Positions 32,354 to 45,209 of a stretch of 45,529 nt of DNA are shown here, piece by piece (positions within the stretch are counted from its first letter, which is position 1; each line of letters starts with the position of its first letter). This DNA comes from an uncultured Aureispira sp. (GTDB lineage: Bacteria > Bacteroidota > Bacteroidia > Chitinophagales > Saprospiraceae): positions 1 to 45,529 of the forward strand of contig CAJQQM010000210.1 of NCBI GenBank assembly GCA_905480485.1. The letters run 5' to 3'. Both the position numbers and the translations under genes were made by a program. A model generated the notes under the pieces. That model was given only the letters and a program-made list of their open reading frames with translations, was not told the origin of the DNA and did no database searches.

Positions 32354-33931
32354 ATGAGCTTTACACCTTGGATAAAAATAGGATTATTATTATGCCTTCT
32401 TTGGGGCAACAAGCAAGCAAAAGCGCAGCTTTTATCGCTCGAAGATTTAGCTAAAGAAAAAATCTACTACTCGATTGACCAAGCGGTCAGAGACGCCGAC
32501 CAAGCCAAACGATTACGGGTATTCAGACGTGCCTATTCTTTCCCTACTGCTGTTCCTCGTATGCTGCAGCTTCAGTGGCTTACCATGAATCACACACTGA
32601 TTGAGTCAGTCCCTGAATCCATAAAAAACATGCAAAATTTGCAAGTTCTAGAGCTAAGAGGCAACAAACTCAAGCGTTTGCCTGAGGCGATTTGTGCTTT
32701 GTCTAATTTAAAACAACTCGACCTTTCCAAAAACCATCTAACAGGCCTTCCCCAAAACTTTTCGGAGCTAAAGCAGCTTCAGTCCCTAAATATTGGCCAA
32801 AACAAAAAAATAACAGCCCTTCCTAATCAAATATTTGAACAGACTTCTTTGAAAAGCCTTGTCATCAGACAAATTAAACTCGAACAGTTACCCCCTGCTA
32901 TCGGACAACTCAAGCACTTAGAGGTTTTGGACTTATACGGTAATAAACTTTCCAAAATTCCTGCTGAAATAGGCTTACTTGTACAGCTCAAGCAGCTTAA
33001 TGTTGGGATGAATGAAATTAAAAATGGCCAAAACATTTTTGATTGGTTGAGTCAATTAAACGCGCTAGAGTTTTTGAATATTGACGCGCTAGGCCTCAAA
33101 AATCTAGGACCAAACATCGCGCAGTTTAAACGTTTAAAATACTTAAGTGCGCAGCTTAATAATATCAAGTATTTGCCTGCTGAACTTTATACCATGCAGC
33201 AACTAAAGGTATTGGATGTCTCTTCTAACCTATTAGATACGCTTGACCAAGCAATTGCGAACTTAGTTAATCTAGAAACGTTAAATCTAGAACGCAACGA
33301 GTTTGACCAATTACCGGACGCATTTGGAGCACTCAAAAAACTCAAAAAACTCAAATTAGGCGTCAACCGTTTACGTTCAATCCCACAAAGTATTACCGAA
33401 TTAGAGGCTTTGGAATCACTTGATATCGCGAATACCGGGCTAAGAGATTTGCCCAAGGGCTTTGGACAACTCAAGAATCTTAGTTTTCTTAATTTAGCCT
33501 TTAACAAATACCTCAACCCTAGTCGGGCTGCCAAAGAACTAATTCGCTTGCCTTTATTAAAAACACTAGAAATGAGTCAAAATGGACATACGAATTTTTC
33601 AGACAGCTGGACTCAGTTAAAAGCTATAGAAGATTGGGATTTGCGCGATAATAACTTTAAAAACTTACCGGATTCTATAGGTAGACTTCAGACACTTAAA
33701 AAACTCGACTTGCGTTACAATCAGCTCAAGGAGGTCCCTGAATCGATTGGACAATTACTAAATTTAGAAAAATTAGACTTAGGATATAACGCCCTACGTC
33801 GATTACCTGAATCTATCAAGCAGCTCAAAAATCTTAAATTATTAAAGCTCGAACGCAATAAAATATCAGCAGAAGAACGTTTAAAAATTAAAAATTGGTT
33901 GCCTAATACCAAAATTTTATTCGAACACTAA
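32354..33931 (+). CDS. Secreted leucine-rich repeat protein
   Basis: The 525-residue product has a signal peptide (about 1-25, ending KQAKAQ). It then has about 17 repeats of 23 residues following LxxLPxxIxxLxxLxxLxLxxNxL, for example LPEAICALSNLKQLDLSKNH and LPESIKQLKNLKLLKLERNK. This is the bacterial/plant-like LRR class and forms a solenoid for protein binding. There is no T9SS tail or membrane anchor, so it is probably periplasmic. It lies 26 bases after the propeller lipoprotein. The gene is followed by the trp promoter region with no terminator seen. Confidence 0.85.
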   Translation: MSFTPWIKIGLLLCLLWGNKQAKAQLLSLEDLAKEKIYYSIDQAVRDADQAKRLRVFRRAYSFPTAVPRMLQLQWLTMNHTLIESVPESIKNMQNLQVLELRGNKLKRLPEAICALSNLKQLDLSKNHLTGLPQNFSELKQLQSLNIGQNKKITALPNQIFEQTSLKSLVIRQIKLEQLPPAIGQLKHLEVLDLYGNKLSKIPAEIGLLVQLKQLNVGMNEIKNGQNIFDWLSQLNALEFLNIDALGLKNLGPNIAQFKRLKYLSAQLNNIKYLPAELYTMQQLKVLDVSSNLLDTLDQAIANLVNLETLNLERNEFDQLPDAFGALKKLKKLKLGVNRLRSIPQSITELEALESLDIANTGLRDLPKGFGQLKNLSFLNLAFNKYLNPSRAAKELIRLPLLKTLEMSQNGHTNFSDSWTQLKAIEDWDLRDNNFKNLPDSIGRLQTLKKLDLRYNQLKEVPESIGQLLNLEKLDLGYNALRRLPESIKQLKNLKLLKLERNKISAEERLKIKNWLPNTKILFEH

Positions 33932-34006
33932 GTATTGTTTTACAGCACTTTAAATACAAATAAGCTCTATTGATCTTTAAATATTACAAAAAAAACAAAC
34001 TAAAAA

Positions 34007-34038
34007 CTTGTAAGTTTAGCCAAAACAACCAATATTTG
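34007..34038 (+). promoter_or_regulatory. Candidate promoter of the trp operon
   Basis: CTTG (34007-34010) and AATATTTG (34031-34038) fit the TTTG / TAnnTTTG consensus with one mismatch each and a 20-base spacer. Transcription would then start almost at the leader ATG (34044). An alternative -7 box, TAAGTTTA at 34011-34018, would leave about 20 bases of leader. Confidence 0.3.
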
Positions 34039-34043
34039 TATCA

Positions 34044-34133
34044 ATGAAAAATAACTACATACATATCAATACTAACAAAAATAACAGCACCAATCTTTGG
34101 TGGTGGACTACTTCCCTCCGATGGCGACAGTAG
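34044..34133 (+). CDS. trpL: trp operon leader peptide
   Basis: A 29-codon ATG frame carries three consecutive Trp codons (34098-34106, in NLWWWTTSLRWRQ) and a fourth Trp codon at 34122-34124, then TAG. Trp is a rare residue, so four in 29 codons upstream of a trp operon points to a sensor of charged tRNA-Trp. The Trp run forms part of a small hairpin (CACCAA/TTGGTG, 34088-34102). An intrinsic terminator begins 39 bases after the stop codon. Translation should decide whether RNA polymerase reads into trpE. This role is inferred from the layout, which matches the enterobacterial trpL scheme. Confidence 0.85.
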   Translation: MKNNYIHINTNKNNSTNLWWWTTSLRWRQ

Positions 34134-34171
34134 CATAATTTTGTTGTATTAATCCTCTTACATAGGTTTTA

Positions 34172-34212
34172 CAAAACTTGCAAATCGCCCCGCGATTTGC
34201 AAGTTTTTTTTT
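34172..34212 (+). terminator. Intrinsic terminator of the trp attenuator
   Basis: A perfect stem of up to 16 bp (AAAACTTGCAAATCGC paired with its complement, 34173-34207, loop CCC) is followed by nine T residues (34204-34212), ending 25 bases before the trpE start. A competing structure is possible: GGCGA (34123-34127), GCA (34133-34135) and TTTTGT (34139-34144) can pair in register with TCGCC (34185-34189), TGC (34179-34181) and ACAAAA (34171-34176). This would open the terminator when the ribosome stalls at the Trp run. Confidence 0.88.
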
Positions 34213-34237
34213 GTCCATATCTAGCCAATTCTTTATC

Positions 34238-35638
34238 ATGAATACCATTAAATTACATACCGTCTGTCGTCGATTTTTATCCGATATGCATACCCCCGTG
34301 CGGCTTTACTTACAGTTACGCGACCACATTCCGCACTGCTTATTGCTTGAAAGTTCCGATTATCAATCCAAGGAAAATAGTTTTTCTTTTATTTGTGCTA
34401 AACCAATTGCAGAAATTAGTATAAAAGATCATCTGATACAATACCAAACGCCTAAAGGCCGCAGGTCTGAAGCTATCCCACCCCGTACAAATGTATCGAG
34501 CTTATTAAAAAAATTTTGCGATCAATTTGAGTTTAGCGGGGCGGACGAATTTCAACAATTTAACGGCTTGTTCGGACATACTAATTTTGATGCGGTACAA
34601 TATTTTGAGCAAATAGCTATAGACCACAACAAAAAACAACACGATACCCCCGACCTTCGCTATGCCTTATATCAATATCTCATTGTTATCAATCACTATA
34701 ATAATGAACTGTTCCTGCTCGAAAATATAGCGGAGGGCGCGCCTTGCACCTTGGATAAATTAGAAGGGTATTTTAAAAAAGGAGCCATCACAACTTATTC
34801 TTTTCAAACCGAGGGTTCTCAAACGAGCAATATCAATGATCAAGCTTTTAAAGATCTTGTCCGTGCAGGAAAAAAACATTGTGCTTTAGGAGATGTTTTT
34901 CAAGTCGTTTTTTCTAGACAATTTCAACAAAAATACAAAGGTGACGACTTTAATGTATACAGAAGCCTTCGGTCTGTCAATCCATCACCCTACCTCTACT
35001 ATTTTGATTATGGTAGCTATAAAATTTTTGGTTCCTCTCCTGAAGCGCAACTCATGATAAAAGACAATAAAGCTTCGTTGATGCCTATTGCCGGCACGTA
35101 CAAACGAAGTGGCAATGCTTCAATTGATAAACAGAGGGCGCAACAATTGCTAGAAGACCCTAAGGAAAATGCCGAACATGTCATGCTAGTTGACTTGGCA
35201 CGCAACGATTTGAACCGACACACAAGCAACGTTGCTGTTGCGGCCTACAAAGAAGTACACTATTACAGTCATGTGATGCACTTAGTATCTAAAGTAGAGG
35301 GAGATATTCAAGACGACTGCTCAATTTTCCAGGTTTTTGGCGACACCTTCCCGGCCGGTACACTTTCGGGGGCTCCAAAATTTAGAGCTTTAGAACTGAT
35401 TCAGCGCTATGAGAATCAAAACCGTGGATTTTATGGTGGCTCAATTGGTTTTTTTAACCCGAAAGGGCAGCTCAATCAAGCCATAATTATCCGTTCTTTT
35501 ATGAGCATAAATCAGTGTCTTTATTTTCAGGCAGGCGCCGGTATTGTAATAGATTCGGATGAAGAAAAAGAACTTAAAGAGGTTAATAACAAATTAGCGG
35601 CCTTACAGAAGGCACTCGAAATAGCTACAAAACTATAA
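34238..35638 (+). CDS. trpE: Anthranilate synthase component I
   Basis: The ATG at 34238 is chosen because an upstream in-frame TTG lies within the attenuator hairpin. The 466-residue product makes anthranilate from chorismate with TrpG. The N-terminal LLESSDY is the Trp feedback-binding motif, so end-product inhibition is expected. The chorismate-utilising domain has MPIAGTYKRSGN, DLARNDLNRH, VMHLVSKVEG, DTFPAGTLSGAPKFRALELI, GGSIGFF and QAGAGIVIDSDEEKELKEV. It is the first structural gene of trpEGDCFBA, 17 bases from trpG. Confidence 0.97.
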   Translation: MNTIKLHTVCRRFLSDMHTPVRLYLQLRDHIPHCLLLESSDYQSKENSFSFICAKPIAEISIKDHLIQYQTPKGRRSEAIPPRTNVSSLLKKFCDQFEFSGADEFQQFNGLFGHTNFDAVQYFEQIAIDHNKKQHDTPDLRYALYQYLIVINHYNNELFLLENIAEGAPCTLDKLEGYFKKGAITTYSFQTEGSQTSNINDQAFKDLVRAGKKHCALGDVFQVVFSRQFQQKYKGDDFNVYRSLRSVNPSPYLYYFDYGSYKIFGSSPEAQLMIKDNKASLMPIAGTYKRSGNASIDKQRAQQLLEDPKENAEHVMLVDLARNDLNRHTSNVAVAAYKEVHYYSHVMHLVSKVEGDIQDDCSIFQVFGDTFPAGTLSGAPKFRALELIQRYENQNRGFYGGSIGFFNPKGQLNQAIIIRSFMSINQCLYFQAGAGIVIDSDEEKELKEVNNKLAALQKALEIATKL

Positions 35639-35655: not shown

Positions 35656-36246
35656 ATGAAAATACTAGTGATCGATAATTATGATTCTTTTACCTACAAC
35701 CTGGTGCAACAACTCAAGGAATTAAACCTTGGTACGATCGATATATATCGAAATGACGCGATTGAACTTGATGCAGTAGCCAATTATGATCTAATTATTT
35801 TGTCCCCAGGGCCAGGACTGCCCAAGGATGCAGGAATATTGCTTGAGCTAATTCAAAAATACGGTAACAAAATCCCCATGTTGGGCATTTGTCTCGGACA
35901 CCAGGCTATTGCCCAGGTATACGGAGCTTCTTTAAGTAATTTAAAACAGGTATACCATGGTTTGGCAACAGCCATTCGTGTTTTGAGACCGGAGGGAGTG
36001 TTTAAAGGACAAGACGAACGGATGACAGTAGGTCGTTACCATTCTTGGGTAGTTGATAAACAAGGATTTCCGGATTGTCTGACAATAACTGCCGTTGACG
36101 AACAAGGTTACATTATGGCCCTTCGGCACAAAGAATTTCCTGTCTTCGGGATGCAATTTCACCCAGAATCAATTTTAACCCCTCAAGGATTAGAACTATT
36201 AAAAAACTTTGTAACAACAGCCTGCAGCAAGGTAGCACTTGTTTAA
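35656..36246 (+). CDS. trpG: Anthranilate synthase component II (glutamine amidotransferase)
   Basis: The 196-residue product is a class I glutamine amidotransferase supplying ammonia to TrpE. It begins ILVIDNYDSFTYNLVQQL. The nucleophile Cys is in MLGICLGHQAIAQVYGA and the His-Glu pair in MQFHPESIL. LSPGPGLPKDAG forms the oxyanion region. It could also serve p-aminobenzoate synthesis, as in other bacteria with one such subunit. trpD starts 9 bases later. Confidence 0.96.
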   Translation: MKILVIDNYDSFTYNLVQQLKELNLGTIDIYRNDAIELDAVANYDLIILSPGPGLPKDAGILLELIQKYGNKIPMLGICLGHQAIAQVYGASLSNLKQVYHGLATAIRVLRPEGVFKGQDERMTVGRYHSWVVDKQGFPDCLTITAVDEQGYIMALRHKEFPVFGMQFHPESILTPQGLELLKNFVTTACSKVALV

Positions 36247-36255
36247 ATATAGCCT

Positions 36256-37247
36256 ATGAAAGCATTACTTCAAAAATTATTTCAACAACATTACTTAAGC
36301 TATGAAGAAGCTAAAAGTAGTTTGATGATGATAACAACACAACAGGTAAACATCGCTCAATTAGCTTCGTTTCTGACCGTCTTTAGGATGCGTCCAATTG
36401 CCCGACAAGAATTAGAAGGATTTAGAGATGCTTTGTTAGAATTGTGCAGGCCTATATCATTAGATCAGCATGACTGTGTCGATATGTGCGGCACGGGTGG
36501 CGACGGCAAAGATACCTTTAATATATCTACCTTGGCAGCTGTAGTAGTGGCAGGGGCAGGCTACAAGGTAGCAAAACATGGCAATTATGGTGTATCATCT
36601 GTTTGCGGTTCTTCGAATGTTTTAGAGAAAACCGGCTACACCTTTAGCAATCAAAATTCGGTTTTGGAAAAGCAACTAGACAAGCACCATTTGTGTTTTT
36701 TGCATGCCCCTTTATTTCATCCTGTCATGAAAGCAGTCGGACCGGTTCGTAATCAGTTAGGTTTGCGCACTTTTTTCAATCTTTTAGGACCAATGGTAAA
36801 TCCGGCAAACCCCAAAAGCAAGTCGTTGGAGTTGCCGATTTACACATACTTAGATTGTACCAATATGTTTTGCAACAAACCAATCGCAACTACGCAATTG
36901 TGCACAGTCTTGATGGCTACGATGAAGTTTCCTTGACCGGCGAATTTAAACTCGTGACGCCACAACGCGAGCAAGTTTTGAGCCCACAGCAACTGGGTAA
37001 AAATGTAAACAAGTCAATAGACCTACATGGAGGAAGTAGCATCAAAGAATCAGCAGCAATTTTTATGCACATTTTGAGTGCCAAGGGCAACAAAGCCCAA
37101 AACGACGTTGTTTGCAGCAATGCAGGGATAGCGATTCAACGTTTTAGGCCGACCCGAAGTTTAGAGGACTGTATAGACGAAGCCGAAACCGCGCTATTAA
37201 GCAAAAAAGCCTATAAAAATTATATATCACTAGTAGAAACTATTTAA
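36256..37247 (+). pseudogene. trpD: Anthranilate phosphoribosyltransferase, frameshifted in this sequence
   Basis: Two overlapping frames together give a full-length TrpD of about 330 residues, which transfers phosphoribosyl to anthranilate. The first frame has DMCGTGGDGKDTFNISTLAA, KHGNYGVSSVCGSSNVLEK and RNQLGLRTFFNLLGPMVNPA. After PANPKS (36817-36819) the family sequence QVVGVADLHILRLYQYVLQQ continues only in the -1 frame from 36819. One base, most simply a C in AGCCAA, is missing. No standard slippery heptamer is present at the site. Both halves are well conserved, so a sequencing error or a very recent mutation is likelier than old decay. Confidence 0.92.
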
Positions 37248-37248
37248 A

Positions 37249-38067
37249 ATGAACAATTTTCTTGAAAAAATAATCGCATATAAATACCAGGAAGTAGAAA
37301 AAAACAAAAATTTTTATCCCACAAAACTATTGGAGCAAAGTATCTATTTTGAAACAGCAGCCGTATCTATGAAAGGTTTTTTATTGCGCAAAAATGCCTC
37401 GGGTATCATTGCCGAATTCAAACGAGCATCTCCCTCTAAAGGAACTATTAATAAACACGCAGCGGTTGAAACGGTTTCGATAGGCTATATGCAAGCAGGG
37501 GCATCGGCTTTATCGGTCCTTACCGATGCTCATTTTTTTGACGGTAGTAACCAAGACTTGACAGAAGCTAGAAAGTTTAATTATGCTCCAATTTTGTATA
37601 AGAATTTTATTGTAGACGAATACCAGCTAATTGAAGCAAAGGCCGCAGGGGCGGATGTAATTTTGTTGATTGCAGAATGTCTTACAAAAACACAATTAAA
37701 AAATCTAGCTACCACAGCCAAAAGCCTGGGCCTTGAAGTTTTAATGGAATTGCACGATGCCCTTCAGCTTGAAAAATTATGCGAGCAGGTAGATATTGTG
37801 GGGGTAAATAATCGCGATTTAAAAAGTTTTGAAGTGTCGATTAAAAGGTCTATTGAAATTGGTGCCTTGATTCCCGAATCCTTTCTAAAGATTTCTGAAT
37901 CGGGAATTCGACATCCTGAAACGGTTCTAAGTTTACGACAACACGGATTTAAAGGTTTTTTGATGGGGGAACACTTTATGCGGCATGCCCGACCTCAAGA
38001 CGCTTGTTCAAAATTTATCAAATCCATCAAACAACAACAAAAACCTTTGTATGCCTATGAAAATTAA
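37249..38067 (+). CDS. trpC: Indole-3-glycerol phosphate synthase
   Basis: The 272-residue product is a TIM barrel that closes the indole ring of CdRP. Conserved blocks: GIIAEFKRASPSKGTIN (catalytic Glu and Lys), GASALSVLTDAHFFDGS, PILYKNFIVDEYQL, AGADVILLIAECL, VGVNNRDLKSFEV and ISESGI. It begins one base after the end of trpD and overlaps trpF by 11 bases, so translation is probably coupled. Confidence 0.96.
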   Translation: MNNFLEKIIAYKYQEVEKNKNFYPTKLLEQSIYFETAAVSMKGFLLRKNASGIIAEFKRASPSKGTINKHAAVETVSIGYMQAGASALSVLTDAHFFDGSNQDLTEARKFNYAPILYKNFIVDEYQLIEAKAAGADVILLIAECLTKTQLKNLATTAKSLGLEVLMELHDALQLEKLCEQVDIVGVNNRDLKSFEVSIKRSIEIGALIPESFLKISESGIRHPETVLSLRQHGFKGFLMGEHFMRHARPQDACSKFIKSIKQQQKPLYAYEN

Positions 38068-38680
38068 AGTCTGTGGTATGCGGGACCCTAGCAATATAAA
38101 ATCGATCGATGCACTAGGAATCGACTTTATGGGGTTTATATTTTACAATAAATCCCCGCGCTTCACCAACTACTCAAGTGATCATAAAAGCCCAATTAAG
38201 GCTCAAAAAATCGGTGTTTTTGTCAATAGTTCTCAAGAAGAAATATTGACAAAAGTAGTCGAACATCAATTGCGATATGTGCAGCTTCACGGAAGTGAAT
38301 CGTCAGAATTTTGTGCACAACTAAGCCAAAAAGGGGTTGCGATTGTTAAAGCTTTTCAGGTCGATAATTTTTTTGACTTTGAATTGATCAAGGCTTATGA
38401 ATCGGTGTGCAGCTATTTTCTTTTTGATGCCAAAGGCAAGCACTATGGTGGCAACGGTATACAGTTTAATTGGCAAATCTTAAAAAACTACCGGTTAGAT
38501 ACACCCTATTTTTTGAGTGGGGGTATCGATTTAGAAAGTATAGAGAAACTCAAAAACATGCACTTACCGGGATTATATGCTATCGATATTAACAGCAAGT
38601 TTGAAATTGATCCTGGCATGAAAAACATTGAGCTTGTTAAGCTCCTAACCCAAAAATTATCCACCTTAAAGTACCATTAG
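38057..38680 (+). CDS. trpF: Phosphoribosylanthranilate isomerase
   Basis: The start at 38057 gives [13 protein letters not shown], the usual opening with the catalytic Cys; upstream in-frame codons lie within trpC. The 207-residue TIM barrel has [37 protein letters not shown] (catalytic Asp) and FLSGGID. Normal length. It overlaps trpC by 11 bases, and trpB follows after two bases. Confidence 0.96.
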
Positions 38681-38682
38681 CG

Positions 38683-39900
38683 ATGCAACAATATCAAATA
38701 AATGAAGACGGTTTTTATGGCAATTTTGGCGGTGCATATATCCCCGAAATGCTTTATCCCAATATAGAAGAATTAAAAAATAAGTATACTGATATAATAA
38801 AGTCCGAGCAATTCCAACAATCATTTCGCCTACTTCTCAAAGATTATGTAGGACGGCCAAGCCCACTTTATTTTGCCAAGCGTTTAAGTCAGCAATATAA
38901 GGCACAAATCTACCTTAAAAGAGAAGACCTTTGCCATACAGGAGCGCATAAAATAAACAATACCATCGGACAAATACTTTTAGCTAAGTCGCTCAAAAAA
39001 AGTAGAATTATTGCCGAAACAGGAGCCGGACAACATGGTGTTGCTACCGCGACCGTTTGTGCCTTAATGGGTATGGAGTGCATTGTTTATATGGGGGCAC
39101 ATGATATTCAACGACAAGCTCCAAATGTTGGGCGCATGAAAATGCTAGGGGCTAAAGTAATCGCCGTGCACAGTGGTAGTAAGACCTTGAAAGATGCCAC
39201 AAATGAAGCCATTAGAGATTGGATTAGCCATCCAACCAATACACACTATATAATAGGGTCTGTTGTAGGACCACATCCTTACCCCGATATGGTGGCTCGT
39301 TTCCAATCGGTAATTAGCGAGGAAATACAGCTGCAACTAATGGAGCAGACGGGTCGAGATTATCCAGACAAAATAATAGCCTGTGTCGGAGGAGGCTCGA
39401 ATGCAGCAGGAGCATTTTACCACTATATAGACCAAACGAAGGTGGACCTAATTGCCGTCGAAGCAGCAGGGGCCGGCCTGTACTCCGGCAAATCTGCTGC
39501 TACTAGTGTTTTGGGGACCGAGGGAATTATCCATGCAAGCAAAACTTTATTGATGCAAACGGCTGACGGACAAATAGTTGAGCCTCATTCTATTTCTGCA
39601 GGCCTTGATTATCCTGGTATAGGCCCTATGCACGCGCACCTTTTGACAACTAAAAGAGCGAAGGCTATAGCAATTACCGACCAAGAAGCCCTACAGGCTG
39701 CCTATCACCTGAGTCAAGTAGAAGGTATCATCCCTGCGCTTGAAACAGCGCATGCATTTGCAGCCCTTGAAAAAATCAGATTCCATAAAAATGAAGTGGT
39801 CGTCGTTAATTTATCGGGAAGAGGCGACAAAGACTTACAGACCTATCTTAAATACGCCGATCAATTTATCAATCAAAAACACAAAAGCGATGCAAAATAG
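38683..39900 (+). CDS. trpB: Tryptophan synthase beta subunit
   Basis: The 405-residue product is a PLP enzyme joining indole and serine. The PLP lysine lies in [15 protein letters not shown]; the phosphate loop is [57 protein letters not shown] and [11 protein letters not shown] are the other family blocks. It is the longer TrpB1 type that pairs with TrpA. It overlaps trpA by 11 bases. Confidence 0.97.
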
Positions 39901-40681
39901 ATTCCAACATTTATTTGATAAGAAGTCAGAGAACATCTTAAATGTATACTTTACTGCAGGATATCCAAATTTGGATTCAACCAAAGAACTCTTGCACAAC
40001 TTAGAAGTAGCCGGGGCAGATATAGTAGAAATTGGAATGCCTTATTCCGATCCTTTAGCCGACGGACCAACCTTGCAGAAAAGTAGTGCTGTAGCACTAG
40101 AAAATGGGATGTCTATCACTGTATTGTTTGAACAGCTCCAAGATATTCGTTCAGAAACACAGCTCCCGATTGTTCTGATGGGCTACTTAAATCCTGTGTT
40201 ACAATATGGCCTGGAAGCATTTTTGAAGCACTGTGCAAACCTTCAAATTGATGGTTTAATTTTGCCCGATATGCCCTTGAGTATTTATCAAAGCGACTAC
40301 GCGGTTTTATTTAACAAATATCAAATCAAACCAATTTTTTTGATTACTCCTTCTACCTCTGAAGCTCGTATTAGGGCTATTGATACGCTTAGTGAAGCAT
40401 TTATTTATGTAGTTTCTACGGCTAATACCACCGGAAGTGATCAATTATTTACCGATGCTACCATTCAATATTTCAAAAGAATTAAAAACATGCAGCTTCA
40501 AACGCCCTGTTTGATTGGTTTTGGAGTATCTCGACATGATCATTTTAAAGAAACTTGTAAATATGCTTCAGGGGCTATTATCGGAAGTGCTTTTATTCGA
40601 CATGTTCAATCAAAAGGTATTAGTTCATCCTCTATTCAATCATTTATAGGATCTATAAAAGGGTCTTACGTACTACAATAA
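39890..40681 (+). CDS. trpA: Tryptophan synthase alpha subunit
   Basis: The start at 39890 gives [12 protein letters not shown]; longer in-frame versions lie within trpB. The 263-residue TIM barrel cleaves indole-glycerol phosphate. Catalytic Glu and Asp lie in [18 protein letters not shown] and the Asp of [20 protein letters not shown] and IGFGVSRHD complete the phosphate site. The 11-base overlap with trpB matches that of trpC and trpF. Confidence 0.96.
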
Positions 40682-40693
40682 TATTAATAAGCT

Positions 40694-41710
40694 ATGATTA
40701 TTCAATTAGAAAAAAATATTCGAACCGATCATTACCAAGCACTTATACAACAGTTGGAAAAAATTGGTTATCAATACACAGCCGTTCAAACTCAGGTTCA
40801 AAACTATTTAGTTGCCATTGGTAATGCGTCTTTTGACATTAGAAGTATTGGTTCTTTGCAAGGCGTCAAAGATTTGCATCGAGTAAGCGACGATTATAAA
40901 TTAGTCTCTTCTAAATGGAAAGTTCAAGCTAGTCAAATAGATTTGGGCGAAGGCATTAAAATTGGTCGTGGTCAATTTCAAATTATGGCTGGCCCTTGTT
41001 CTATTGAGGGAGAAAAACAAATTTTTGAAACGGTTCAACATTTAGTCAAAAATAATGTTAAGGTTATGAGAGGAGGTGTATACAAGCCTAGAAGCTCTCC
41101 ATATTCGTTCAGAGGTTTGGGTATTGACGGGCTTAAATCTTTTTATAAAGCTTGTAAAAGCGAAGGGATCAAAATCATCACTGAAGTGATGCAGATGGAC
41201 CAAATTGAGCCGATGTATGAGTATGTTGATATCTTTCAGGTAGGCGCTAGGAATGCACAAAATTTCAATTTATTGGATGCCCTTGGAGCGGTAGACAAAC
41301 CGGTAATGCTTAAAAGAGGCATTTCGGGCACTATTAATGAATTACTGCAAGCTGCTGAGTATGTATTCTCGAGTGGAAATGAAAAGATTTTGCTTTGTGA
41401 ACGGGGTATTCGTTCTTTTGAAGGTAGCTACCGTAACACCCTTGACTTGAACGCGGTGCCTATACTCAAAGACAAATCACATTTGCCCGTTATAGTTGAC
41501 CCTTCACATGGTATCGGTATTCGAAAACATGTTGAACGTATGGCCTTAGCTGCAGTATTGGCAGGTGCGGATGGGTTGATTGTAGAAGTGCATCAAGAAC
41601 CTGAAAAGGCTTTTTCTGATGGCCAACAAACCTTGTCGTTTCAAGAGGCCAACGAATTGTATTCCCATATTAATCAAACGGTAGCGTTTAGAGATAAATT
41701 ATATTCATAA
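40694..41710 (+). CDS. aroF: 3-deoxy-7-phosphoheptulonate (DAHP) synthase, type I-beta with regulatory domain
   Basis: The 338-residue product makes the first compound of the shikimate pathway from PEP and erythrose 4-phosphate. Residues 1-72 form a ferredoxin-like domain, as in the Thermotoga enzyme, where it mediates aromatic amino acid feedback. The catalytic barrel has QIMAGPCSIEGEKQIF, GGVYKPRSSPYSFRGLG, KRGISGTINELLQAAEYV, LCERGIRSFEG, DPSHGIGIRKHV and GLIVEVHQEPEKAFSDG. It follows trpA by 12 bases, so the entry step of the pathway shares the trp transcript. The symbol aroF is used in the broad AroF-family sense. Confidence 0.95.
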   Translation: MIIQLEKNIRTDHYQALIQQLEKIGYQYTAVQTQVQNYLVAIGNASFDIRSIGSLQGVKDLHRVSDDYKLVSSKWKVQASQIDLGEGIKIGRGQFQIMAGPCSIEGEKQIFETVQHLVKNNVKVMRGGVYKPRSSPYSFRGLGIDGLKSFYKACKSEGIKIITEVMQMDQIEPMYEYVDIFQVGARNAQNFNLLDALGAVDKPVMLKRGISGTINELLQAAEYVFSSGNEKILLCERGIRSFEGSYRNTLDLNAVPILKDKSHLPVIVDPSHGIGIRKHVERMALAAVLAGADGLIVEVHQEPEKAFSDGQQTLSFQEANELYSHINQTVAFRDKLYS

Positions 41711-41740
41711 TATCGGCTTTTTAGTCACAACAGCACCCAA

Positions 41741-42979
41741 ATGTCATCAATCAGTTTGCAAGCACCAAACCACCAAAGCCCTATGCACCTGCAAGGTTCA
41801 ATTACACTAAATGGTTCCAAAAGTATTAGTAACCGCCTTTTAATCATTCAGTCTCTTTGTGAACAATCTTTCCAGATTAAGGATTTGTCCAATGCAAAAG
41901 ATACGGTTATACTTCAAACTTTACTAACCAAAATTGAAGACCCTCTATTGGATGCAGGCGATGCGGGAACGAGTTACCGTTTTTTGACAGCTATGCTCGC
42001 GCTAAGAGGCAAGAATCAGTTTTTGATTGGGAGTAAACGCATGTGTGAACGCCCTATCGGTGTCTTGGTCGATGCACTAAATGAATTAGGGGCCAATGTA
42101 GTTTATGCAGGGAGTGCCGGATTCCCCCCGCTCAACCTCAAGGAACACGATGCAGCCTCATGGGGCTGCCGCGTACACATAGGGGCACATGTAAGTAGTC
42201 AGTTCATTTCTGCATTGTTATTAATAGGCCCTTTGATGCCTAATGGTATAGAACTAATTTTAGAGGGTAAAATAATTTCGAGGCCCTACATACAAATGAC
42301 CCTTAATTTGATGGACCGTTTTGGTATTTTGTCTGTTTGGAACAAAAATATGATAAAAGTACCGCCTCAAAACTACACCGCTATTGATTGTAAAGTAGAA
42401 GCCGATTGGTCGGCAGCCTCCTACTTTTACAGCTTTGCCGCTTTATCGCAAGAATCCGGTTTACAGCTGAACGGTTTGTACCGAGATTCTGTACAAGGTG
42501 ATGCAGTTGTTGCTGAACTCATGACAAAATTTGGTATTGAAACGACTTACAACGAGCAAGGGATTTTCATCGAAAAGAAGGGTTCGGTTGTTGATAAGTT
42601 TTATCACGACTTTAGCGATTGTCCAGATTTGGCTCAAACATTTGCTGTATTGTGTGCAGCGATGAATATAGAGGCAGAATTGACGGGTTTAGATACTCTA
42701 AGTATCAAAGAAACAGACAGAATTGCTGCTTTGTACACTGAATTAACCAAACTAGGATGTCATGTTGTTATTAGTTCTAACAGCCTGATAATTACCAAAG
42801 GGATAGATAATAGATGCCAAAAAGTACAAATAGACACCTATAACGACCACCGAATGGCGATGTCTTTCGCTCCATTGTGCCTAATTCTGGAAGAATTGGT
42901 GTTTGACGACAAACAAGTAGTTAGCAAATCTTATCCAGACTTTTGGAATGATTTGGCGGCTATAGGTATTGTCCACTAA
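41741..42979 (+). CDS. aroA: 3-phosphoshikimate 1-carboxyvinyltransferase (EPSP synthase)
   Basis: The 412-residue product adds enolpyruvyl to shikimate 3-phosphate, the step before chorismate synthase. Blocks: LNGSKSISNRLLIIQSL (phosphate binding), LDAGDAGTSYRFLTAML, RPIGVLVDALNELGA, VSSQFISALLLIGPL, DWSAASYFYSFAAL and KETDRIAAL, with DTYNDHRMAMSFAPL near the end. It starts 30 bases after the DAHP synthase gene and closes the operon. Its end overlaps the convergent phosphoesterase gene by four bases with no terminator visible. Confidence 0.95.
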   Translation: MSSISLQAPNHQSPMHLQGSITLNGSKSISNRLLIIQSLCEQSFQIKDLSNAKDTVILQTLLTKIEDPLLDAGDAGTSYRFLTAMLALRGKNQFLIGSKRMCERPIGVLVDALNELGANVVYAGSAGFPPLNLKEHDAASWGCRVHIGAHVSSQFISALLLIGPLMPNGIELILEGKIISRPYIQMTLNLMDRFGILSVWNKNMIKVPPQNYTAIDCKVEADWSAASYFYSFAALSQESGLQLNGLYRDSVQGDAVVAELMTKFGIETTYNEQGIFIEKKGSVVDKFYHDFSDCPDLAQTFAVLCAAMNIEAELTGLDTLSIKETDRIAALYTELTKLGCHVVISSNSLIITKGIDNRCQKVQIDTYNDHRMAMSFAPLCLILEELVFDDKQVVSKSYPDFWNDLAAIGIVH

Positions 42980-44089: not shown

Positions 44090-45058
44090 ATGTTATCCAC
44101 TAATTTTAAATTTTTTGCCCTATTGCTAAGTTTTTCAGCGTTGTTTTTTACTTCATGTGACGAAACTGAAACTCCTGTTACCGAAGATCCTAAAAACATA
44201 GTTGAATTAGCTCAGGAAACAAGTGACTTAAGTAGTTTAGTTGCTGCCTTAACCGATAGCAGACACACAACAGATTTTGTTGCCTTGTTGTCAGGTACAA
44301 CTGACTATACTGTTTTTGCTCCAACGAATACTGCTTTCCAAGCACTTTTAGATTCTGATGCATCTTGGAATTCAATTGCTGATATTCCAATCGCTACGCT
44401 TGATGCTGTTTTGAAGCATCATGTAATTGCAGGTTCTGTTTTATCTACTGATTTGACAGCTTCTTATGTCAATACCCTCAGCATGGGAGCAAATAGTGAG
44501 GCGATGTCTTTGCAAATCGATGTTGATCCTGCAGTTCGTTTTAACGGTTCTGCATCTCCTGTAACGGTTGACATTGATGCCTCTAACGGTACTATTCATA
44601 CTATTGATGCTGTTATGTTGCCTGCAAATGTTGTTACGCACGCTACAAACGGTGCTAGCTTTACGACTTTAGTGGCTGCCTTAACTGATTCTAGACATAC
44701 TACTGACTTTGTTGCTGTATTATCCGGAACGGGTCCTTTTACTGTTTTTGCTCCGACAAATGATGCTTTTCAAGCATTGTTAGATTCTGATTCTACTTGG
44801 AATGGATTAGCTGATATTCCAATCGCTACGCTTGACGCAGTACTTTCTTACCATGTTGTAAACGGTGCTAACGTTCAGTCTGATGAGTTGACTGATGGTC
44901 AATCAGTAACTATGTTGAGCAACGGAACAACTACTGTTGATCTTTCGATGGGTGCTAAATTAACTACATCTAGTGGACAATCTATCAATATTACAGCTAC
45001 CGATGTTCAAGGAACAAATGGTGTTGTACATGTAATTGATGCAGTAATGCTGCCCTAA
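44090..45058 (+). CDS. Lipoprotein with two fasciclin (FAS1) domains
   Basis: The 322-residue product has a lipobox FTSC (lipidated Cys23), a short Glu/Thr/Pro linker, and two FAS1 domains (about 35-178 and 183-322). Each has the FAS1 H1 box (DYTVFAPTNTAFQALL / PFTVFAPTNDAFQALL) and the H2 box (GTIHTIDAVMLP / GVVHVIDAVMLP). The domains are very similar, so they come from an internal duplication. FAS1 domains act in cell-surface adhesion or matrix binding. The gene is monocistronic and ended by a strong terminator. Confidence 0.94.
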   Translation: MLSTNFKFFALLLSFSALFFTSCDETETPVTEDPKNIVELAQETSDLSSLVAALTDSRHTTDFVALLSGTTDYTVFAPTNTAFQALLDSDASWNSIADIPIATLDAVLKHHVIAGSVLSTDLTASYVNTLSMGANSEAMSLQIDVDPAVRFNGSASPVTVDIDASNGTIHTIDAVMLPANVVTHATNGASFTTLVAALTDSRHTTDFVAVLSGTGPFTVFAPTNDAFQALLDSDSTWNGLADIPIATLDAVLSYHVVNGANVQSDELTDGQSVTMLSNGTTTVDLSMGAKLTTSSGQSINITATDVQGTNGVVHVIDAVMLP

Positions 45059-45080
45059 CTACATAGCATAAATTACTGTA

Positions 45081-45117
45081 AGAGGCTGCCTGATTAAATC
45101 AGGCAGCCTCTTTTTTG
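45081..45117 (+). terminator. Intrinsic terminator after the fasciclin gene
   Basis: A perfect stem AGAGGCTGCCTGAT / ATCAGGCAGCCTCT (45081-45111) with a 3-base loop is followed by a T-run, 22 bases after the fasciclin stop codon. Confidence 0.95.
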
Positions 45118-45209
45118 TATAGTTACACCAACGACTTTGGCATTTGTTTTGAAGCTTAAACCTTGTCCAGGCTCCACTAATTTAATGATCCCAATCAAAA
45201 CCATCATGT

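Follow-up and report, generated by a model that had tools for sequence, protein, structure and literature searches.

A very probable ribosome-mediated attenuator of the trp genes in an uncultured Aureispira sp., divergent from the known Bacteroidota trp leader

The trp genes in the stretch of DNA analysed here (the window: 45,529 nt, contig CAJQQM010000210.1 of assembly GCA_905480485.1, from an uncultured Aureispira sp. in the Saprospiraceae, Bacteroidota) are, judging from sequence, very probably controlled by a ribosome-mediated transcription attenuator, which would be a divergent member of the trp leader kind already known in this phylum. The observations behind this reading are the anatomy of the locus, its conservation, the covariation of both competing helices in relatives, and a native pairing preference across loci; the promoter, the stalling of the ribosome, a kinetic switch, and the response to Trp are what we infer. 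The sequence features of a trp attenuator are present: a short ORF carrying several consecutive Trp codons lies ahead of the trp operon; an intrinsic terminator sits between this ORF and trpE; and an antiterminator exclusive with the terminator can be formed by leader sequence 3′ of the Trp codons, both in the window fold and in 62 relatives. The features are listed below, with positions in the window.

34008-34038, plus strand: putative sigma-A promoter, with TTG at 34008-34010 and a -7 box, AATATTTG, at 34031-34038 (from sequence)
34043, plus strand: predicted transcription start, 1 nt 5′ of the leader ATG (end of the -7 box, 34038, set at -5 as in F. psychrophilum)
34044-34133, plus strand: leader peptide ORF, MKNNYIHINTNKNNSTNLWWWTTSLRWRQ, 29 codons, stop TAG at 34131-34133 (read from sequence)
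34098-34106, plus strand: Trp-Trp-Trp sensor codons, TGG TGG TGG (invariant in six of six genus loci)
34108-34133, plus strand: 1:2 hairpin, 34108-34116 paired within 34123-34133 (fold, -7.8 kcal/mol)
34123-34144, plus strand: region 2, the 5′ strand of the antiterminator, which shares bases with the fourth Trp codon and with the stop codon of the leader (folding, genus alignment)
34171-34189, plus strand: region 3, the 3′ strand of the antiterminator, which shares bases with the terminator (5′ arm and first base of the loop; folding)
34173-34212, plus strand: intrinsic terminator, with the 3:4 hairpin at 34173-34207 and a T run at 34204-34212 (fold and terminator scan)
34238-35638, plus strand: trpE, at the head of the operon (TIGR00564 trpE is the best NCBIfam match, at 408 bits, below the curated cut-off of 518)
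35656-42979, plus strand: trpG, trpD (in two frames), trpC, trpF, trpB, trpA, DAHP synthase, and aroA (NCBIfam)

The leader frame reads ATG AAA AAT ... CTT TGG TGG TGG ACT ACT TCC CTC CGA TGG CGA CAG TAG, with the fourth Trp codon at 34122-34124; the 29-codon leader with a Trp-Trp-Trp run and one further Trp, as proposed in an earlier sequence-only reading, is correct at the level of single bases (34044-34133). The terminator hairpin, AAAACTTGCAAATCGC-CCC-GCGATTTGCAAGTTTT (34173-34207, 16 bp, -20.7 kcal/mol), had been described there as a perfect 16-bp hairpin followed by nine T. The hairpin stands, but the count does not: four of the 16 pairs take up the first four of the nine T, so that these were entered twice, and the element has either 12 bp and nine T or 16 bp and five T. 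The gap of 25 nt between the end of the T run (34212) and the trpE ATG (34238) had been given correctly.

Such an arrangement is rare by chance. The fold of 34044-34215, a check proposed in the same reading, has z = -5.0, with none of 200 shuffles as good. Among 3000 shuffles of the window's own 450-nt trpE upstream region, a run of Trp codons (W-run) occurred alone in 8 and together with a terminator in none; for the 36 other ATG-started ORFs of at least 100 codons in the window, the corresponding numbers were 2 and 0. A terminator scan of 33900-34300 found two sites, the leader terminator and a weaker one on the opposite strand (shuffle mean 0.1).

Judged by their spacing, the genes from trpE onward would be co-transcribed. 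DAHP synthase and aroA (40694-42979) are close behind trpA on the same strand, and the attenuator may therefore also control chorismate supply. The trpD gene (36256-37247) is split, TIGR01245 positions 1-186 matching in 36256-36936 and positions 202-327 in 36855-37247, in overlapping frames; the frameshift means that the gene is broken or else that the assembly is in error here. A search for the trp repressor TrpR (PF01371) had no match in this genome, while the same search does match in E. coli. About 200-400 nt upstream of the hisG match of the same genome (G000:C16, L161) there is a leader-like ORF (MLFTPTHFTHHHHHCMPHTSGS...) followed by a hairpin and T run (GGCTTATCACAACAGTGATAAGCC-TTTTTTT), by its sequence a probable his attenuator; no clear leader was found at the ilvB locus of the same genome.

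In the window fold, the competing pairing of 34123-34144 with 34171-34189 lies where the sequence-only reading had placed it. With a ribosome stalled at WWW and transcription at the terminator loop (34191), it is the minimum-energy fold, made up of three segments (34123-34127 with 34185-34189; 34133-34135 with 34179-34181; 34139-34144 with 34171-34176); in the full-length RNA, the terminator forms in its place. If the ribosome is assumed to extend 12 nt beyond the first base of the A-site codon, the mean probability that the terminator 5′ arm is sequestered by upstream sequence, in RNA reaching out to the loop, is 0.65 with the ribosome at W1-W3, compared with 0.20 at the stop codon, 0.27 at the fourth Trp, and 0.34 without a ribosome. 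Counting against the pairing, equilibrium folding once the 3′ arm is transcribed has the terminator prevail in all ribosome states, so that switching would have to be kinetic. The fourth Trp codon does overlap the antiterminator strand, as had been noted, but a ribosome stalled there would cover that strand and favour termination, and in this model the codon is therefore probably not a Trp sensor but a part of the pairing strand.

The attenuator would then work as follows. Transcription would begin roughly 1 nt 5′ of the leader ATG. If Trp-tRNA is plentiful, the ribosome would pass WWW to the stop codon and cover region 2; the terminator would form, and most transcripts would stop before trpE. 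With scarce Trp-tRNA, the ribosome would halt at WWW, covering region 1, leaving region 2 free to pair with region 3 as it emerges, and holding back the terminator until the polymerase is past.

From the window's sequence alone the case for the antiterminator is modest, and it rests on relatives. Two results count against it: five of 100 shuffles of the window spacer sequester the terminator arm equally well, and in the swap test the window comes out on the unfavourable side (z +0.5); in the five other genus loci, 0 to 2 of 100 spacer shuffles do as well. Most other family loci are no better than their shuffles in this test, which cut the terminator at the loop and so is blind to loop-contacting antiterminators outside the genus.

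The genus sample comprised nine genomes (the window's and eight others), six of them with a trpE match at E 1e-60. The sequence-only reading had staked its case on conservation of the Trp run and hairpin in relatives: all six of these loci have both, as do most family loci and most of the phylum sample. In the genus alignment the blocks TTGGTGGTGGACTACTTCCCT and ATGGCGA.AGTAGCA (the dot being variable) are invariant while the peptide N-terminus varies, which points to a constraint on the RNA.

The wider set consists of 160 regions upstream of trpE, sampled at every level from genus through family, order, and class to phylum (Bacteroidota), and assembled from a first search (60 genomes, 30 loci), a family search (118 of 150 genomes with a trpE match; 23 new loci obtained directly and 40 fetched by place), and a phylum search (331 of 395 genomes matched; 27 new loci directly and 40 fetched). 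A short ORF with WW or W.W is found in 146 of the 160, part of which may be spurious automatic hits (L156 looks weak); by chance, a W-run ORF appears in 148 of 3200 shuffles and, in a second run, in 256 of 4800. Within the family, 84 of 90 loci have a W-run leader, with WWW in 68, and in the family f24 all 23 loci have a WWW leader. An intrinsic terminator lies 3′ of the W-run leader in 140 of the 146 loci by each of two rules (by the first rule, the other six lack one); leader and terminator together are thus found in 140 of 160 Bacteroidota loci, against 2 of 4800 shuffles.

Seven of the 14 loci missed by the ORF scan do have a Trp run before a terminator on inspection (L036, L041, L063, L079, L099, L124, and L153); a model of the family leaders (R1, below) pointed to these. 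In L079 the fetched stretch holds just the end of the leader. In L036 and L099 the leader is about 0.5 and 1.3 kb upstream of trpE, and L083 has an RF01692 match further upstream (G175:C168:136944-137072); with leader or RF01692 match about 0.5 to 1.3 kb away, another gene may come first in the operon in all three. The leader was not found in L019 (where the contig is cut), L083, L138-L140, L147, or L155. Three of these, L138-L140, make up the family f30, in which the 450 nt before trpE contain no Trp-run leader at any of the three loci; control in this family may be of another sort or act from further upstream. Among named genomes (the best 80 of 573 relatives, a set that for this reason leans to close TrpE), 73 have a W-run ORF, 61 of them with WWW. 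Carriers include Tenacibaculum, Aquimarina, Kordia, Chitinophaga, Pontibacter, and Neolewinella (WW in N. aquimaris); three hits, those of Bacteroides fragilis (L237), Parabacteroides (L248), and L199, seem to be spurious. No W-run ORF was found among these best 80 of 573 in L207, L209, L219, L221, L222, L232, and L251, the sequence being incomplete for L222 and L232.

Covariation was scored in an alignment (A2) of 62 of the 72 non-genus family leaders with a terminator by the first rule, the ten longer than 125 nt being left out. In the terminator stem, 94.1% of cells retain the pairing, changes on both sides are seen in 12 of 13 pairs, and none of 500 shuffles reaches the covariation score. 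The competing helix in A2 pairs the end of the leader ORF with the terminator loop and the inner 3′ arm. It is paired in 78.9% of cells (shuffles, 73.5%), and eight of its nine pairs are changed on both sides, a count that 22 of 500 shuffles reach; its covariation score of 0.231, which none of 500 shuffles reaches, falls to 0.119 or less when the partner is slid by 1 to 3 columns, these values being favoured by the choice of antiterminator columns from the same alignment on which they are scored. The two helices share columns 139-142 and are therefore mutually exclusive. The longest antiterminator helix includes at least three terminator-loop bases in 65 of 78 family loci.

Swap tests across loci agree: on average, a leader pairs better with the terminator of its own locus than with those of others. 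For the 2:3 pairing, the mean native residual is -4.87 kcal/mol in 140 loci, and none of 2000 permutations is as good, either over all loci or within the family (78 loci) or f24 (23 loci), with the proviso, for these and the shuffles above, that permutations and shuffles ignore the relatedness of loci. In the small families the result is weak or suggestive (f20, 118; f23, 103; f22, 188; and f27, 83 of 2000). The 1:2 pairing likewise is matched by 0 of 2000 permutations in all 140 loci, in the family, and in f24. Complementarity in f24 is kept in the variants CGTCGTGA/TCACGACA, TTCGTGAA/TTCACGA, GTGAG/CTCAC, and GATTCAG/CTGAATC. Within the genus, pairing is kept through a change of register (GGCGA with UCGCC in the window, GCGAGAG with CUCUCG(U/C) in relatives); in the terminator, a G-C pair of the window is replaced by U-A in relatives. 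The switching logic put forward in the sequence-only reading, whereby a stall at the Trp run would free the antiterminator, is thus supported by the covariation of two exclusive helices and by the swap tests.

Leaders of this kind have been recognized in the phylum before: the Rfam family RF01692, Bacteroid-trp, is the “Bacteroidete tryptophan peptide leader RNA.” Some Bacteroidetes attenuators were reportedly also listed by Vitreschak et al. in 2004. Bacteroid-trp is tabulated as a cis-regulatory RNA of Bacteroidetes in a 2010 paper (Weinberg et al., PMC2864571), and a 2019 paper likens the structure of Bacteroid-Trp RNA to that of the E. coli trp leader and gives it as conserved ahead of the trp operon in F. 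psychrophilum (PMC6414381); for the same species, strong clues are reported for leader-peptide attenuation ahead of amino-acid operons (PMC9723704). Another text from 2010 describes its own Firmicutes case as the first to be demonstrated beyond the Proteobacteria and Actinobacteria (PMC2965389). The earlier suggestion of enterobacterial logic in a distant phylum is supported as to the logic, but the logic is not new to the phylum, RF01692 and PMC6414381 having preceded it.

By the RF01692 model (cut-off 49 bits), the window leader is not a member: no hit was obtained at the window locus even at E 10. At E 1 there was likewise no match in L031, L109, and four other loci of the genus, or in a set of 20 loci from other families, four of which (all f20) had sub-threshold matches to RF00513; an Rfam search at cut-off returned nothing for eight named loci. 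The model does hit both f24 leaders tested (L113 and L120) at 66 bits, in L113 from 5′ of the Trp run to the terminator 5′ arm. In the window's family it has sub-threshold matches (33.8-46.4 bits) in 9 of 20 leaders, and a search of 150 family genomes under stricter filters put two over the cut-off and 17 at E 0.01. The window leader would work like Bacteroid-trp, with which it shares phylum and operon, and leaders of relatives connect the two; terminator and region 2 of the genus differ from Bacteroid-trp in sequence and in pairing register.

The enterobacterial model RF00513 (Trp_leader) matches 34095-34212 over its full length at 21.7 bits and E 0.027, short of membership at its cut-off of 41; five other Rfam families match at the same permissive level, in a chance-like manner (E 0.25 to 9.5). 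The Trp-run leader and the 1:2, 2:3, and 3:4 layout are common to the window and the enterobacterial attenuator. The E. coli trp leader has a Shine-Dalgarno 5′UTR, whereas the window leader RNA is predicted to start about 1 nt before the ATG, without one. The use of terminator-loop bases by the longest antiterminator helix, in most loci of the window's family, is a further difference from the enterobacterial attenuator. The leader-peptide candidates of F. psychrophilum also belong to amino-acid operons of a Bacteroidota species, and in the two papers concerned are named from the transcriptome or from a known RNA motif (PMC9723704; PMC6414381).

Two other matches may be recorded here. Model R1, built from the 62 non-genus family leaders, scores the window leader at 38.9 bits, but gives 39.4 to a terminator of ordinary appearance at 45007-45118 and up to 44.4 elsewhere in the genome; it is dominated by the terminator, and so was not used as evidence of membership. 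At an f22 locus (L128, 353-448, plus strand, opposite trpE), about 340-430 nt upstream of trpE, there is a sub-threshold match to Flavo-1 RNA (RF01705; 38.4 bits against a cut-off of 42, E 2e-05).

The putative -7 box, AATATTTG, has five of the six fixed bases of TAnnTTTG, the one mismatch counting against it; the TTG at 34008-34010 we take to be the -33 element. The TTG, the box, and the distance from box to ATG are identical in all six genus loci, in each of which the one-mismatch box predicts a 1-nt 5′UTR. In F. psychrophilum, the -7 box TAnnTTTG is reported to occupy positions -12 to -5, and 5.5% of mRNAs to be leaderless (PMC9723704). Over the wider set, 89 of 146 loci have a perfect -7 box ahead of the leader start (371 of 2920 shuffles), and the predicted 5′UTRs fall mostly into two groups, one of 7 nt or less (44 of 146 loci; 120 of 2920 shuffles) and one of 12-23 nt (40 of 146; 74 of 2920). 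From its predicted start, the window leader mRNA is probably near-leaderless.

Could the terminator simply end transcription from upstream, with trpE having its own promoter and the W-run ORF being incidental? This is hardly credible. The gene on the upstream side ends at 33931, some 240 nt short of the hairpin; the combination of leader and terminator recurs in 140 of 160 loci; and a usual promoter would hardly fit into the 25 nt between T run and trpE. A weak sigma-70-like match can be found at 34211-34239, but shuffles contain 2.3 such matches on average, more than the one seen here, and the promoter consensus described for Bacteroidota differs from a sigma-70-like one (PMC9723704). It is also highly unlikely that genuine attenuation is exerted here through a terminator under some other control, such as an RNA-binding protein, a T-box, or a sensor of small molecules. 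The Trp-specific context could also suit such other Trp sensors; against them, no T-box or riboswitch match was found at the Rfam cut-off in the window, so that the leader is not classed as a T-box, the Trp codons are conserved while the start of the peptide varies, and 1:2 and 2:3 complementarity is the layout of a ribosome switch.

An explanation of another sort, which would add to attenuation, is an additional role in trans for the leader peptide or for the short RNA left by termination, by analogy with peTrpL and rnTrpL of Sinorhizobium meliloti. In that species, of a different phylum, the trpL RNA starts at its own ATG, and the trp operon is described as being under no transcriptional repression (PMC7298713); the start predicted 1 nt before the window leader ATG resembles this. 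However, what is nearly invariant in the genus is the part that pairs as RNA, the peptide N-terminus being poorly conserved, and a function in trans seems unlikely here.

A ribosome-mediated attenuator of the trp genes is in itself expected at this locus, since Rfam already covers the class. In this family many leaders escape the Rfam model, which exceeds its cut-off in 2 of 150 genomes as against 84 of 90 loci with a W-run leader in the direct scan (in a draw of equal size, 118 genomes had a trpE match). On a broader scale, Trp attenuation by a stalled ribosome may be ancestral in Bacteroidota, working without Shine-Dalgarno sequences in many lineages through mRNAs that start at or near the ATG, and with an antiterminator that mostly attacks the terminator loop; this is put forward tentatively, as a possibility that is still somewhat doubtful. 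A start at or near the ATG would let the first ribosome load at the 5′ end of the RNA as it emerges. If this is true, such leaders would provide a native assay of transcription-translation coupling across the phylum. A widespread switch read by the ribosome would also imply that ribosomes are near RNA polymerase in these Shine-Dalgarno-poor bacteria.
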